A stretch of DNA of 64,000 nt from Henriciella algicola (lineage in GTDB: Bacteria; Pseudomonadota; Alphaproteobacteria; Caulobacterales; Hyphomonadaceae). The position numbers were made by a program, and so were the translations under genes. The stretch spans positions 372,001 through 436,000 of the forward strand of contig NZ_QWGA01000008.1 of assembly GCF_003576245.1 (NCBI RefSeq). Reading direction: 5' to 3'. Positions 31,043-35,964 of the stretch are shown here, in pieces. A model generated the notes under the pieces. It saw only the letters and a list, made by a program, of their open reading frames with translations, did not search any database and was not told the DNA's origin. The first letter of the stretch is position 1, and every line of letters starts with the position of its first letter.

Positions 31043-31894
31043 TTAATAATGCAGGTCCCGTCCGCCCGAGCGGCCGATGAATGTCTGTGCGATGGCGATC
31101 GCATCCTGGATCGGCTGTGCCGTCGGATCGGTCGAAATCAGCGTCCGCTGGCAGCGCACCGCTTCGCGCACCTTCTCGTCGCGGTGGACTATACCGGCGA
31201 GCGGCGGGCGGTAGCCCTGGAACTTGCGGCAGGCCATGGCGATCGCTTCATAGGTCTGCTGACCCATGGCGCGGTTCGCCGCCTGGTTGATCGCGACATG
31301 CTGGTCGACATCCGGGGCGTAGCCGCGAAGCACCTTCATGAAGGCATAGCCGTCTGTCATGGAGGACGGGTCGTCCGTGATCACGATCAGCGCCTTGTCG
31401 GCCGCGCGCGCAAGGCGCATGCAGTTGGCTTCGATACCGGCACCAAGGTCGAGAACGATCTTGTCATATTGCAGCGACAGCGTCGTCAGGCCAGCGGCGA
31501 GGCGGGACACCTCGTCAGTGGAGAGCTCTGCGAGCGCGCCGGAGCCGGACCGGCCCGGAAGGACGTCAAAGCCGCCGTCGCCAGCGCCGCCATCAACCGG
31601 CGTCACCGCGTCTTCAAGCTCAACCCAGCCAGCGATCACCGCAGCGATGTCGGTGATCGGCTCGATGCCGAGCTGAACGTCTACGTTTGCAAGACCAAGG
31701 TCGCCGTCGACAAGAAGCGTCCTCTGCCCCTGCTGGGCAAAGGCACTGGCCAGTGTGATCGACATGAACGTCTTTCCCACACCGCCTTTCCCGGATGCGA
31801 CCGCAATGATCGAACCCGGTTCAACACGTCTGTGATGAGACTTGCCTTGCGGCGCTTTTGGTCTGTCCATCGATTTTGGAAGCATGAAGCTCAT
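31043..31894 (-). CDS. flhG: Flagellar number regulator FlhG (MinD-like ATPase)
   Basis: A 283-residue ParA/MinD-type ATPase with the deviant Walker A VASGKGGVGKTFMS, LLVDGDLGLANVDVQLG, VLDLGAGIEANC and TDDPSSMTDGYAFMKVL, a pattern typical of FlhG/FleN, which limits flagellar number and works with FlhF at the pole. Start at ATG 31894 has GAGAGGAG nine bases upstream. It lies 1 base after the flhF stop. The ATPase motifs are intact, in contrast to FlhF. Confidence 0.85.
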   Translation of the reverse strand: MSFMLPKSMDRPKAPQGKSHHRRVEPGSIIAVASGKGGVGKTFMSITLASAFAQQGQRTLLVDGDLGLANVDVQLGIEPITDIAAVIAGWVELEDAVTPVDGGAGDGGFDVLPGRSGSGALAELSTDEVSRLAAGLTTLSLQYDKIVLDLGAGIEANCMRLARAADKALIVITDDPSSMTDGYAFMKVLRGYAPDVDQHVAINQAANRAMGQQTYEAIAMACRKFQGYRPPLAGIVHRDEKVREAVRCQRTLISTDPTAQPIQDAIAIAQTFIGRSGGRDLHY

Positions 31895-33036: not shown

Positions 33037-33294
33037 TCAGGCGGCCTGCTTTTCGTCAAGGATTTCAGAGAGTTTCACGCCCAGCTGACCATTGCTAATG
33101 ATCAGACGCCCGCGCGCCAGAAGCTGGTCGGAGACGTAGATGTCCACAGGTTCATTAATAGATTTCTGCAACGCGATGACCTCGCCGCCGCGCATCGCGC
33201 TCAGCTTCTCCATCGGGATTCGCGCCTCGCCGAGAATGACGTCGACACGCACAGGCACATCCAGCAGATTTGATCCAGACGCACGCCCGCTCAT
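33037..33294 (-). CDS. fliN: Flagellar motor switch protein FliN
   Basis: The 85-residue product is a SpoA domain: LLDVPVRVDVILGEARIPME, GEVIALQKSINEPVDIYVSDQLLARGRLIISNGQLGVKLSEIL, which forms the C-ring with FliG and FliM. Start ATG 33294 is chosen because of GGGAGGAG seven bases upstream; an earlier in-frame start at 33345 would give 102 residues. FliM is not in the window. Confidence 0.85.
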   Translation of the reverse strand: MSGRASGSNLLDVPVRVDVILGEARIPMEKLSAMRGGEVIALQKSINEPVDIYVSDQLLARGRLIISNGQLGVKLSEILDEKQAA

Positions 33295-33389
33295 CGTGTC
33301 GCTCCTCCCAGTTTCGGTATCAAGGGTTGGCTGAAATGGTTTCACGCGGGTTACCGCGCGAGCTTGCCCCTCGAATTTTCAGGTTCGAA

Positions 33390-33752
33390 TCACCTCTGGA
33401 AGAGATTGCCCTGTCCGTCAACGAGCTCGGATGCAATCTTGCGAATCCGTGTCTTGGCATCCTGGCGAACAGCCTCTGAAATCGACGCTTTTTCGAGGGT
33501 ATTCGCCAGCTCGACGATCTGCAGCAGGGCAATACGAAGCGCGTCAGACGAACGCTCCATGGCTGCATTGCGTGCCTTGGCCTCGCGGTCACGTACCATG
33601 TCCAGCGTGCTGCGCCGCGTATCTTCGAGAAGCGCGGCGAGTTCAGAGATGCTGATGGCGATTTTCTCTGGCCCCATTGGGGCAGGGGCAGGCGCGCTGA
33701 AGTCGCTGCGAAACTCGAACGGGGTCACGGTCAACTGGCGGGCGGCGCTCAT
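33390..33752 (-). CDS. Short FliH/FlbE-like flagellar protein
   Basis: The 120-residue product lies exactly where FliH/FlbE is encoded in CtrA-controlled fliF-fliG operons, and it starts within the fliG stop (ATGA). It begins with a Pro/Ala-rich segment and is otherwise a long helix with coiled-coil character (about residues 35-110, ALLEDTRRSTLDMVRDREAK). FliH proteins are normally about 200 residues and bind FliI and FliN. This one is about half that size, so assignment rests mainly on position. Confidence 0.45.
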   Translation of the reverse strand: MSAARQLTVTPFEFRSDFSAPAPAPMGPEKIAISISELAALLEDTRRSTLDMVRDREAKARNAAMERSSDALRIALLQIVELANTLEKASISEAVRQDAKTRIRKIASELVDGQGNLFQR

Positions 33753-34690
33753 TCGATCAGCTCATCGTCAATGTCGTCATGCGCGAGGATGTCGCCCCGG
33801 CGCGCCAGATGACGGGCAATGTCAGTAATCTCGGTACGGGCCGCTTCGACGCGCGAGCGCTTTACCGGCCCTGTCGCCTCGATTTCAGAGACGAGAAGCT
33901 CCCCGGCGCGCTTGGTCATGTTGCGCAGGAAGACGTCCCGCACAGGTTTGCCAGCGCCCTTGAGCGCCAGAGCCAACACAGTGCGATCGATCTGCGAAAG
34001 AACCGTCTGGATTGCGGCAGGGTCCAGCGCGGCAAGGTCATCAAAGGTGAACATGTGCGCGCGGATACGCTCGCCGCAGCCGGGGTCTGAGGTTTCCAGC
34101 GCCTTGAGGAAAGACGTCTCCAGCCCATTGCTCAGCCGGTCAAAGATGCGGGCAACGCCAACTGCGCCCGCGGCCTTGAGGCGATCGGCGCGCGTCGCCG
34201 CCAATCCTTCAAGCTGTCCCTCGATCGTCTTCAGCGTCGCCGGGTGAACCGGGCCAAGCAGCATCAGTCCGCGCATCGCCTTGATTGCAGCGGGCCGGGG
34301 CAGGGCGTGGACAAGTTTCGCCGCGCCGGGCGCTGGCATCTGCGACAGGATCAGCGACAGCGTTTGAGGGTGCTCCCCTTCCAGCATGCCGGCCAGTGTG
34401 TCTGCGTCGAGGTCACAAAGGCGCTGCCAGATATTCTGCGGCTCACCGGCGGGAAGTTCAGGCTGGCGCGACAGTGCACGGCGAAGCGCCGCGGCGTCTT
34501 CTGCCTGCGGCTGAATGGGGCCTGCCGTCATAGCCTGACGAAGGTGAGCTGTTTCACCGGCCGAAAGCTCATTCCAGACACCGGCGGCTGCGGGGCCGAG
34601 CAGCCGCATCAGGCGCGCAGCGCGGTTGAGGCCGGGCTGGCCTGTGGCCTGTGGAGCGGCTTCAGTCTGTTGCAGGGCTGGAAGGCTCAT
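33749..34690 (-). CDS. fliG: Flagellar motor switch protein FliG
   Basis: A 313-residue FliG with the three domains: N-terminal FliF-binding (about 20-80, NRAARLMRLLGPAAAGVWNEL), middle with the EHPQ motif (EGEHPQTLSLILSQM, residues 105-119) and the C-terminal torque domain (ERIRAHMFTFDDLAAL, DRTVLALALKGA, RDVFLRNMTKRAGELL, GPVKRSRVEAAR), where the charged residues for stator contact are kept. It overlaps fliF and the FliH-like gene by ATGA. Thus the rotor is expected to be functional. Confidence 0.92.
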   Translation of the reverse strand: MSLPALQQTEAAPQATGQPGLNRAARLMRLLGPAAAGVWNELSAGETAHLRQAMTAGPIQPQAEDAAALRRALSRQPELPAGEPQNIWQRLCDLDADTLAGMLEGEHPQTLSLILSQMPAPGAAKLVHALPRPAAIKAMRGLMLLGPVHPATLKTIEGQLEGLAATRADRLKAAGAVGVARIFDRLSNGLETSFLKALETSDPGCGERIRAHMFTFDDLAALDPAAIQTVLSQIDRTVLALALKGAGKPVRDVFLRNMTKRAGELLVSEIEATGPVKRSRVEAARTEITDIARHLARRGDILAHDDIDDELIE

Positions 34691-35373
34691 TTCTCGCCCT
34701 CATCTGATGATAGCCAGCCGCGAACGACGCGCGCCACGGCCTTGGGGTCGCGCAGCGCGGCTTCCTTCACGTCGATAAACTCATCTTCGTTCGCTGGCTC
34801 GCCGTGCTCAGCAGGCGCGTGCATCACCTTGCTCGCGGGCTTCAGTTCAAGCGGGCCGTTGGCGCGCGGGAAGGGATCAGAGATCTCTTCGCGGTTCCGC
34901 GCTGGAAACAGCATGAAGATCAGGATGAGGACAGCGACTGCGCCAAGCGCGCCCAGCTCATACATCTCGACGGTCTGCAGTCCGCCAGCGGTCCCCGGCG
35001 CAAAGGCGAAGGGCTGGATGTGCAGGCTGTCAGCGGCCCGGTCATATCCGGCGGTCGTTTCAAGGATGGTGACAACGCGGTCGAAGACTACCCGGTCGAC
35101 AGGCACGCTGCGCTCGGTCGAATTTACCAGAAGCAGGAATTGCTGGTTGCCATCGCTGCCCGTGTGCGTTGCGACGCGCACATTCTGCGCACCGAAAACC
35201 GGCTCCAGCAGGCTCGTCAGCTGGCGCTGCTCAAAGGTCTGCGCATTGGGCGGTGGGGCGCCGTCGGACAACAGCGTATTGGCGCGCCATGCGAAAAGGC
35301 ACGCAGTGATGGCGAGCGCAATGAGCGCCACCAGCCGCGTGCCTCCTGGCATGAATGACCTGCCTGCTGTCAT
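34687..35373 (-). CDS. fliF: Truncated FliF-like MS-ring protein (lacks RBM1/RBM2)
   Basis: Only 228 residues, against about 530-570 in normal FliF. It has a membrane helix at 12-31, a short periplasmic part containing RBM3-like pieces (LTSLLEPVFGAQNVRVATH at 52-70; FDRVVTILETTAGYDRAADS at 97-116), a second helix at 138-157 and the FliG-binding tail (EAALRDPKAVARVVRGWL, 204-221). RBM1, RBM2 and the beta-collar insertion are absent. The start ATG 35373 has GAGGGG eight bases upstream; sciP sits 102 bases further on, so no missing 5' half fits here. Position before fliG supports identity. Confidence 0.7.
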   Translation of the reverse strand: MTAGRSFMPGGTRLVALIALAITACLFAWRANTLLSDGAPPPNAQTFEQRQLTSLLEPVFGAQNVRVATHTGSDGNQQFLLLVNSTERSVPVDRVVFDRVVTILETTAGYDRAADSLHIQPFAFAPGTAGGLQTVEMYELGALGAVAVLILIFMLFPARNREEISDPFPRANGPLELKPASKVMHAPAEHGEPANEDEFIDVKEAALRDPKAVARVVRGWLSSDEGEK

Positions 35374-35419
35374 GGATCAGCCCCTCGGGAAAACTCCCGC
35401 AAGGCTAGGCCTGTCAGCG

Positions 35420-35435
35420 TAAACGGCGCTTTAAC
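35420..35435. promoter_or_regulatory. Candidate CtrA-binding site upstream of fliF
   Basis: TAAA-N7-TTAAC at 35420-35435 differs by one base from the CtrA consensus TTAA-N7-TTAAC. It is 47-62 bases ahead of the fliF ATG, as expected for a CtrA-activated class II flagellar promoter. Confidence 0.45.
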
Positions 35436-35474
35436 GGATCAAAGCGGCTTAGCAGGGATGATGGAGTGCCAGAT

Positions 35475-35753
35475 CTAGTTGGCGCGGTACTGCTGCAGGC
35501 GCGTGGTGCGCAGACCCTTGGTGCCAAATTCGTCATAGAGGCGCGACCAGCCGGCCAGCTCTTCCTCGGACAGGGCGTAGCGTTCACACGCTTCATTCTT
35601 TGAAAGCAGACCTCCGCGCACGGCAGCAACCACCTGTGCTTTGCGACGCGTGACCCATCGCCGGATACCTGGCGGCGGCAGATCCTCCCTGGTCATGACC
35701 TGGCCATCCGGCCCTTTTATGCTCAGAGTTCTTGCTGCGTGCTGCTGCGCCAT
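35475..35753 (-). CDS. sciP: CtrA inhibitor SciP (DUF1153)
   Basis: SciP binds CtrA and blocks transcription of CtrA targets in swarmer cells. The product (92 residues from ATG 35753; 96 from ATG 35765) has the DUF1153 pattern: LPPPGIRRWVTRRKAQVVAAVRGGLLSKNEACERYALSEEELAGW, then RTTRLQQYR. A helix-turn-helix is formed by the EACERYALSEEEL part. I prefer 35753 on a GGTGG just upstream. It is 102 bases in front of fliF on the same strand. Such proximity to fliF and to ctrA is notable. Confidence 0.88.
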   Translation of the reverse strand: MAQQHAARTLSIKGPDGQVMTREDLPPPGIRRWVTRRKAQVVAAVRGGLLSKNEACERYALSEEELAGWSRLYDEFGTKGLRTTRLQQYRAN

Positions 35754-35964
35754 GAGATCCACCATTTCTTAGCGGTTGAAGTCCTGAAGGCGCGTTTTGC
35801 GCCCCGAACTCTGCTCTAGCGCGGGGGACTTAAATGACCTTTCAGCGAAGCCTGTGAGTTTTCATGAAAATTCGATACGTTCTCGCAGGCCCCATTAAGC
35901 AAGGCTTTGCAAATCTGTCCCCGTCTGGGTCAGGTGTGCCGGAACCGGACAACTTCCTTTATTT

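Follow-up and report, generated by a model that had tools for sequence, protein, structure and literature searches.

The question raised by this locus is what a 228-residue relative of the MS-ring protein FliF does directly in front of a fliG gene. An earlier note, made from the sequence alone, had described the protein as carrying both membrane helices, RBM3 only and a FliG-binding tail, with RBM1 and RBM2 lacking, and had proposed either a new minimal MS ring or a specialised paralogue. In the window, by which we mean the whole 64,000-nucleotide stretch of Henriciella algicola DNA that was analysed, the gene for this protein (mini-FliF), its parts and its upstream neighbour are placed as follows.

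34687–35373, minus strand: mini-FliF open reading frame, 228 residues
35266–35346, minus strand: first predicted membrane helix of mini-FliF, residues 10–36, from the AlphaFold2 model
35008–35235, minus strand: RBM3 without beta-collar, residues 47–122, helix-strand-strand-helix-strand, called from AlphaFold2 and hhalign and weakly from Foldseek
34909–34974, minus strand: second predicted membrane helix, residues 134–155, from AlphaFold2 and hhalign
34705–34788, minus strand: putative FliG-binding-type C-terminal tail, residues 196–223, from the alignment and hhalign
35475–35765, minus strand: SciP, the CtrA inhibitor (NCBIfam CtrAInhibSciP, 126.8 bits against a cut-off of 100), the upstream marker of the ancestral fliF locus

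As the earlier note had it, the frame has its own ribosome site (GAGGGG precedes the ATG) and lies directly before the fliG gene, here called fliG2, whose start overlaps the mini-fliF stop as ATGA at 34687–34690. fliG2 overlaps its own next gene in the same way, and from these start/stop overlaps the three genes look co-transcribed. Since sciP ends 101 bases upstream of the mini-fliF start, there is no space for a lost 5' half, again as claimed. A scan of 35300–35950 gave no sigma-70 promoter, and the exact CtrA-box pattern did not occur across the window. A truncated pseudogene is ruled out: at 25 of the 26 loci (23 of the 24 genomes) the frame is open and 213–245 residues long, and dN/dS is well below 1. 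The exception is a 126-residue frame in genome G023.

Searches of Pfam, NCBIfam and the PDB sequences with mini-FliF returned no FliF match, and by Pfam the YscJ/FliF domain PF01514 (RBM1-RBM2) is absent. The relationship appeared in profile comparison. A profile of 25 mini-FliF relatives was aligned by hhalign with a profile of 31 full FliFs (30 from relatives and the main FliF of this genome), and the two matched: one run gave a probability of 98.8% (E 6.4e-16), a local run one of 97.8% (E 6.6e-13). Mini-FliF residues 64–227 paired with full-FliF residues 355–556, and a second, weaker match paired residues 50–78 with 243–271, the first half of RBM3 (66%, E 5.6e-5). Twenty column-shuffled alignments reached at most 1.4% probability and a FliG alignment 0.2%; the shuffled controls rule out a chance likeness. 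RBM1 and RBM2 have no counterpart in the profile alignment, in keeping with what had been read from the sequence, and in the local alignments neither does the beta-collar of RBM3 (full-FliF columns about 272–354). The two gaps thus indicate that RBM1 and RBM2, and the collar within RBM3, have been removed.

AlphaFold2 modelled the monomer with a mean pLDDT of 73 and a pTM of 0.45, and the RBM-like fold that the earlier note had proposed to look for is present, between two long helices. When this model was submitted to Foldseek, a KH domain ranked first, with two FliF rings in the next places and PrgK domain 2 after them. The second-ranked chain, the Salmonella FliF MS ring (6scn_K), had an E-value of 4.5e-3 and TM-scores of 0.25 and 0.35; no match reached E ≤1e-3 and many ribosomal chains scored alike, so that this likeness of the predicted model to the FliF ring is supportive, not decisive. 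In an alignment of 16 of the 20 homologue sequences fetched (A1), L17, A19 and R30 in the first helix and P210 and W220 in the tail are invariant in 16 of 16 rows. On these comparisons we read mini-FliF as a FliF cut down to the first membrane helix, a collar-less RBM3, the second membrane helix and a predicted FliG-binding tail, the composition that had been suggested. SpoIIIAG/SpoIIIAH and PrgK/EscJ are also single- or few-RBM ring proteins with RBM folds anchored in the membrane, and PrgK domain 2 and EscJ are among the Foldseek matches of the model. Mini-FliF differs from them in aligning in sequence to FliF, and we know of no ring protein of their type with a FliG-binding tail.

Homologues of mini-FliF occur in 28 of 61 genomes: 25 of the 29 from its own genus (this genome included), three of the eight from other genera of the family and none of the 24 from the rest of the order. 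Among named genomes, two short mini-FliF peptide patterns matched four records, each of them from Henriciella: H. barbarensis, H. marina and two MAGs. The A1 profile matched in 30 of 385 genomes of the class. Two strong matches are mini-FliFs; the 28 weak ones (E 4e-11 to 7e-4) lie in frames of 527–641 residues, which is full-FliF size, in 27 cases and in a 126-residue frame in one. The latter is a tail-type match (E 2.2e-4) in a distant member of the class (G357:C1:1987219-1987464); its congener G434 has a frame of 568 residues, and the short frame would be a frameshift or another short FliF. Pairwise dN/dS was 0.06–0.26 for mini-FliF and 0.06–0.30 for FliG2 (21 pairs each among seven loci, all from genomes carrying the main flagellum). 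Judged by these substitution ratios, mini-FliF is under purifying selection.

The genome was searched for a second fliF, as the earlier note had proposed. Its only PF01514 protein is a 506-residue full FliF (C2:35064-36584), set in a flagellar cluster with fliN, fliP, a divergent FliG, FliM, MotB, MotA, FlhA, FlgE/K/L/I and others; where a frame in this cluster has no family call, we take its name from the look of its sequence. Mini-FliF as the cell's only MS ring is ruled out by this protein, and the proposal of a new minimal MS ring for the flagellum falls with it. It also supplies one half of what the earlier note had named as refuting evidence, a full-length fliF elsewhere, the other half being that the small copy is silent. 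The cluster order, fliF-(fliH)-fliN-fliP facing motB-flgE-flgK-flgL-flgI, matches that of the fla1-type cluster of Rhodobacterales as described in the available portion of PMC11974857. The main FliG (L003:3257-4360) is very divergent, with a FliG_C score of 43 bits against 119 for FliG2, and the two share only 28% identity. The main FliM (L003:10344-11252, an open frame of 305 residues) has no N-terminal LSxxEIxxLL peptide of the CheY-docking type and no room for one.

Where, then, does mini-FliF come from? Its neighbours downstream are listed here in the order of the gene run.

33749–34690, minus strand: FliG2, 313 residues; FliG_M and FliG_C above cut-off, FliG_N shortened and below cut-off
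33390–33752, minus strand: FliH-position protein, 120 residues, assigned by position and weakly by hhalign (24%, E 8e-4)
33037–33345, minus strand: FliN2, 102 residues with an uncertain start codon; FliMN_C 73 bits
31896–32909, minus strand: FlhF-like SRP-type GTPase, 337 residues; TIGR03499 68 bits, below its cut-off of 174
31043–31894, minus strand: FlhG-position MinD-family ATPase, 283 residues
30199–30918, minus strand: response regulator, presumably CtrA-like by its sequence, 239 residues, downstream of the FlhG-position gene in a conserved position

Comparison with other Hyphomonadaceae, another check that had been suggested, found a full FliF at the syntenic locus. Two genomes of the family (G030 and G034) have the order sciP-fliF-fliG-fliH position-fliN-FlbD position-FlhA-flhF-flhG, with native FliFs of 560 and 559 residues, FlbD-position proteins of 460 and 462 residues (assigned by position) and FlhAs of 714 and 704 residues that match PF00771. 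The mini loci of G012, G022, G005 and G032 keep this order without the FlbD-position gene and FlhA; FliF is short and CtrA follows FlhG. A further locus (G035) is intact from sciP to FliN2, FlhF and FlhG not being seen within the 19 kb read. Because this gene order is shared with G030 and G034, mini-FliF is, by position, the shrunken orthologue of the original FliF of the Hyphomonadaceae, and a mobile or recent paralogue is ruled out by the conserved synteny. The "specialised paralogue" proposal comes closer. By synteny, however, mini-FliF is the original FliF of the family, and it comes with a second set of motor proteins, one that three genomes keep in the absence of full FliF and FlhA. It resembles FliF in RBM3, the second membrane helix and the predicted FliG-binding tail (by profile), in the adjacent fliG and in the sciP-fliF synteny; it differs in lacking RBM1, RBM2 and the beta-collar, in its length (228 against about 560 residues) and in the missing flhA, so that no export gate gene is present at the locus. 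Two PF01514 proteins each occur in G030, G048, G050, G052 and G060. These genomes probably hold two flagellar systems in parallel, a picture that might fit an intermediate state.

A conserved second motor set very probably exists. All 28 mini-FliF genomes have FliM2, a second-kind MotA and a second-kind MotB, the kinds of MotA and MotB being told apart by score (the second kind scores lower) with sequences inspected for six or seven. FliG2 is present in 27; in the remaining genome (G036) the contig ends within the locus. These genomes span four genera, and 25 of them also have a full FliF and FlhA. Those 25 carry two FliG and four FliMN_C proteins, except G036 (one and three) and G011 (a third FliG match, below cut-off); G013 has a third MotB match, also below cut-off. 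Each flagellated mini-FliF genome has one FlhA, split into two matches in G014. FliG, MotA and MotB occur once each in the genera with the native flagellum (G030, G031, G033 and G034).

FliG, FliM/FliN, MotA and MotB of the second set score above the curated Pfam cut-offs. The NCBIfam equivalog cut-offs are missed by the second set for fliN (74.4 against 84.05), MotA1 (276.4 against 303.8) and MotB (162.9 against 277), and by both copies for fliG (FliG2 153.7 and main FliG 74.6, cut-off 226.7) and fliM (FliM2 28.6 and main FliM 15.7, cut-off 219.6). A PDB sequence search with FliM2 gave no match. The motif residues with roles in MotA, MotB and FliG are largely kept. MotB2 has the proton-site motif WKxAYADFLTAL and the peptidoglycan-binding EGHTD motif in six of six rows, and MotA2 has DALPALG and YGxxGP in seven of seven. 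The proton-binding role of the MotB Asp appears in PMC7885107 (motB D33N). In the torque region of FliG2 (26 rows from 24 genomes) the LK motif has its Lys in 25 rows, the helix that follows has its Arg in all 26, and the EHPQT motif varies between EHPQ, ENPQ, ESPQ and, once, ERPA; part of the FliF-binding N domain is missing. The FliM2 peptide [IV]L[ST]xxEIxxLLRP, of the CheY-docking type, occurs in 28 of 28 aligned rows (33 genomes have a match). The set thus resembles the bacterial flagellar motor in having one member per family, with torque, proton-channel and CheY-docking-type motifs. It differs in having no flhA at its locus, in the shortening of FliF, FliG, FliM and MotB and in persisting in three genomes without FlhA. 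The FliH-position protein is also shorter than its native copy, and MotA, FlhF and FlhG are not. In MotB2 (L129:8795-9514) the linker between the plug and the peptidoglycan-binding domain has an estimated 60–65 residues fewer than in native MotB, a shortening that could change how far MotB2 extends towards the cell wall.

The genes for MotA2, MotB2 and FliM2 are unlinked and lie beside genes of no evident relation; no functional partner, load-bearing partner or diguanylate cyclase was identified among these neighbours. With the MotB and MotA regions of G030, stator gene counted, eight genes are in common around MotB2 and five around MotA2. G034 gave matches to four genes around MotB and to none around MotA, and FliM2 has no neighbour in common with the native FliM of G030. 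MotA2 is 40% identical to the main MotA and 43% to the native one, and MotB2 34% and 37% to the main and native MotB. Identity to the native proteins is higher for the main copies (55% for MotA, 46% for MotB) than for the second copies. The lineage of MotA2 and MotB2 rests on the synteny with G030.

Genomes without FlhA show both retention and decay of the set. FlhA is absent from nine of the 61 genomes (G005, G006, G010, G012, G022, G023, G027, G029 and G059), and three of these, G005, G012 and G022 (95, 100 and 99% complete), have mini-FliF. They lack full FliF, FlhA and all other main-flagellum markers tested, and each has no more than a single FliG, MotA and MotB and two FliMN_C proteins. 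The run mini-FliF-FliG2-FliH2-FliN2-FlhF-FlhG is intact, FliM2 is present and the lone stator proteins align with MotA2 and MotB2, so the motor proteins of these genomes belong to the second set. Assembly loss is possible for one of the three and unlikely as the cause of the missing genes in all. In the FliG2 tree they form one clade (88/87 support) with long end branches (0.42–0.61 changes per column), and the loss may therefore have been a single one. In comparisons among them, pN was 0.30–0.31 against a pS of 0.69–0.75, near saturation, for FliG2, and 0.44–0.45 against 0.63–0.68, a weaker margin, for mini-FliF.

In G023 (90% complete), the 126-residue protein between sciP and fliG2 (L086:4005-4385, minus strand) has two hydrophobic segments, judged by eye, and a FliF-type tail ending DPEKTASVIRSWIS..., with no space for an RBM. 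From its sequence it looks like a FliF reduced to a membrane tether for FliG; the genome gave no MotB match. G006 keeps FliN2, FlhF, FlhG and CtrA in order (L087:5277-8315) and has lost mini-FliF, FliG2 and FliH2; it has no MotA or MotB match, and FliN2 with FlhF/FlhG may have a separate role of its own. G027 keeps MotA2, MotB2 and FliM2, with no match to mini-FliF, FliG or FliN. G010 (87% complete), which has the main FliG, two MotA and two MotB matches, is probably merely incomplete.

Three other accounts of the set have to be weighed. It could be a second switch and stator set for the main flagellum, in which FliG2, FliM2, FliN2 and MotA2B2 would supplement or swap with the main motor, as happens with dual stators elsewhere, mini-FliF would form an accessory ring and FliM2 would supply the chemotaxis input lacking in the main FliM. 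Full FliF and FlhA do accompany mini-FliF in 25 of 28 genomes, and the LSxxEIxxLL peptide is present in FliM2 and absent from the 305-residue main FliM. The intact set of the three genomes without full FliF and FlhA, which form one long-branched FliG2 clade, and the low identity of FliG2 to the main FliG make this account unlikely. The gene run also lends itself to a polar landmark, with mini-FliF, FliG2 and FliN2 as a non-rotating scaffold that would load FlhF and FlhG at the pole to place flagellum, pili or stalk, linked to cell-cycle control by CtrA and SciP. According to the portion of PMC11236974 available, FliF in other bacteria is guided to the cell pole by FlhF; flhF and flhG are part of the run here, and FliN2, FlhF, FlhG and CtrA outlast mini-FliF, FliG2 and FliH2 in G006. 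FlhF and FlhG sit in the same run, however, in genomes with a normal native flagellum, and a landmark leaves MotA2 and MotB2, with intact ion-channel motifs in three flagellum-less genomes, unexplained; we consider it quite unlikely.

Could the set instead be a functionless remnant of a replaced flagellum, still in the course of being lost? The shortening of FliF, FliG, the FliH-position protein, FliM and MotB (MotA, FlhF and FlhG excepted) and the partial loss of the set in G006, G023 and G027 would fit. Against this stand the low dN/dS of mini-FliF and FliG2, the occurrence of FliM2, MotA2 and MotB2 in every mini-FliF genome and of FliG2 in all but one, across four genera, and the conserved key motifs, and decay is the most improbable of the accounts considered.

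We prefer, at a probability of roughly 60%, a filament-less, export-less rotor and stator retained after a flagellar replacement. The support is drawn from sequences: homology, synteny, co-occurrence, selection, key residues and persistence without full FliF and FlhA. Mini-FliF would have been inherited vertically from the original Hyphomonadaceae FliF and then reduced, while swimming in the lineage would have been taken over by another, fla1-like flagellum. The original flagellum would have lost flhA, its export gate gene, and flbD from the locus, and at the places read none of its own rod, hook or filament genes survives. What would have been kept is its torque core, with mini-FliF as the membrane anchor, FliG2, FliM2 (with its CheY-docking-type peptide) and FliN2 as rotor and switch, MotA2 and MotB2 as a proton stator and FlhF and FlhG as positioning factors. 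RBM1, RBM2 and the collar, the housing of export gate and rod, would have become useless and been lost, and RBM3, the helices and the FliG-binding tail would have stayed. We infer that the proteins of the set form a ring driven by MotA2B2. What was kept converts proton flow into torque on a ring that can be switched, and what was lost serves to build or hold a filament, the pattern expected of a motor with another job; this suggests a rotary motor kept for a job other than swimming. That mini-FliF, FliG2, FliM2, FliN2 and MotA2B2 make a working, export-independent, proton-driven inner-membrane rotor without a flagellum, serving as sensor or actuator, with one RBM in its periplasmic ring (none in one genome), we put at even odds. 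The loss from the FliG2 N domain, the scattered genes for MotA2, MotB2 and FliM2 with no evident partner beside them, the greater likeness of the main stator copies to the native ones and the incomplete sets of the FlhA-less G006, G027 and G023 count against the preferred reading.

As to what a retained rotor would do, we tentatively favour, at clearly less than even odds and by analogy, a sensor or signalling platform. It would be a dedicated load or surface sensor or a proton-flux-gated signalling platform, probably polar, with CheY-type inputs tuning FliM2. In late flagellar mutants of Caulobacter whose rotor is intact, holdfast production is stimulated via MotAB, its proton channel and DgcB (PMC7885107, as far as its text was available). 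A stator and an inner-membrane rotor without outer parts can thus signal there, as they would here, with the difference that the motor described in that text is the swimming flagellum's own and the present set is a separate one. The same text has load sensed through the filament and argues that the motor is no tetherless sensor; the tactile version of our proposal is the weaker for it. A survey (PMC12199754) reports, in the part available, that 11% of non-motile species have a rotor protein but no filament proteins, and suggests an alternative function; that part describes no defined set of the present kind for such "half motors", and FliF is not named in the main text. In the available main text of PMC12700997, on flagellar losses in Caulobacterales, fliF, fliG and motA are absent and the set is undescribed. 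Among titles and abstract openings on Henriciella/Hyphomonas flagella, truncated FliF and filament-less motors, a partial coverage that is no proof of novelty, no report of the set was found.

Mini-FliF defines a minimal FliF, and an MS ring without RBM1, RBM2 and collar would offer a simple scaffold for structural work. In these bacteria, the retained set provides a natural experiment on which flagellar motor parts merit retention once nothing is left to propel.
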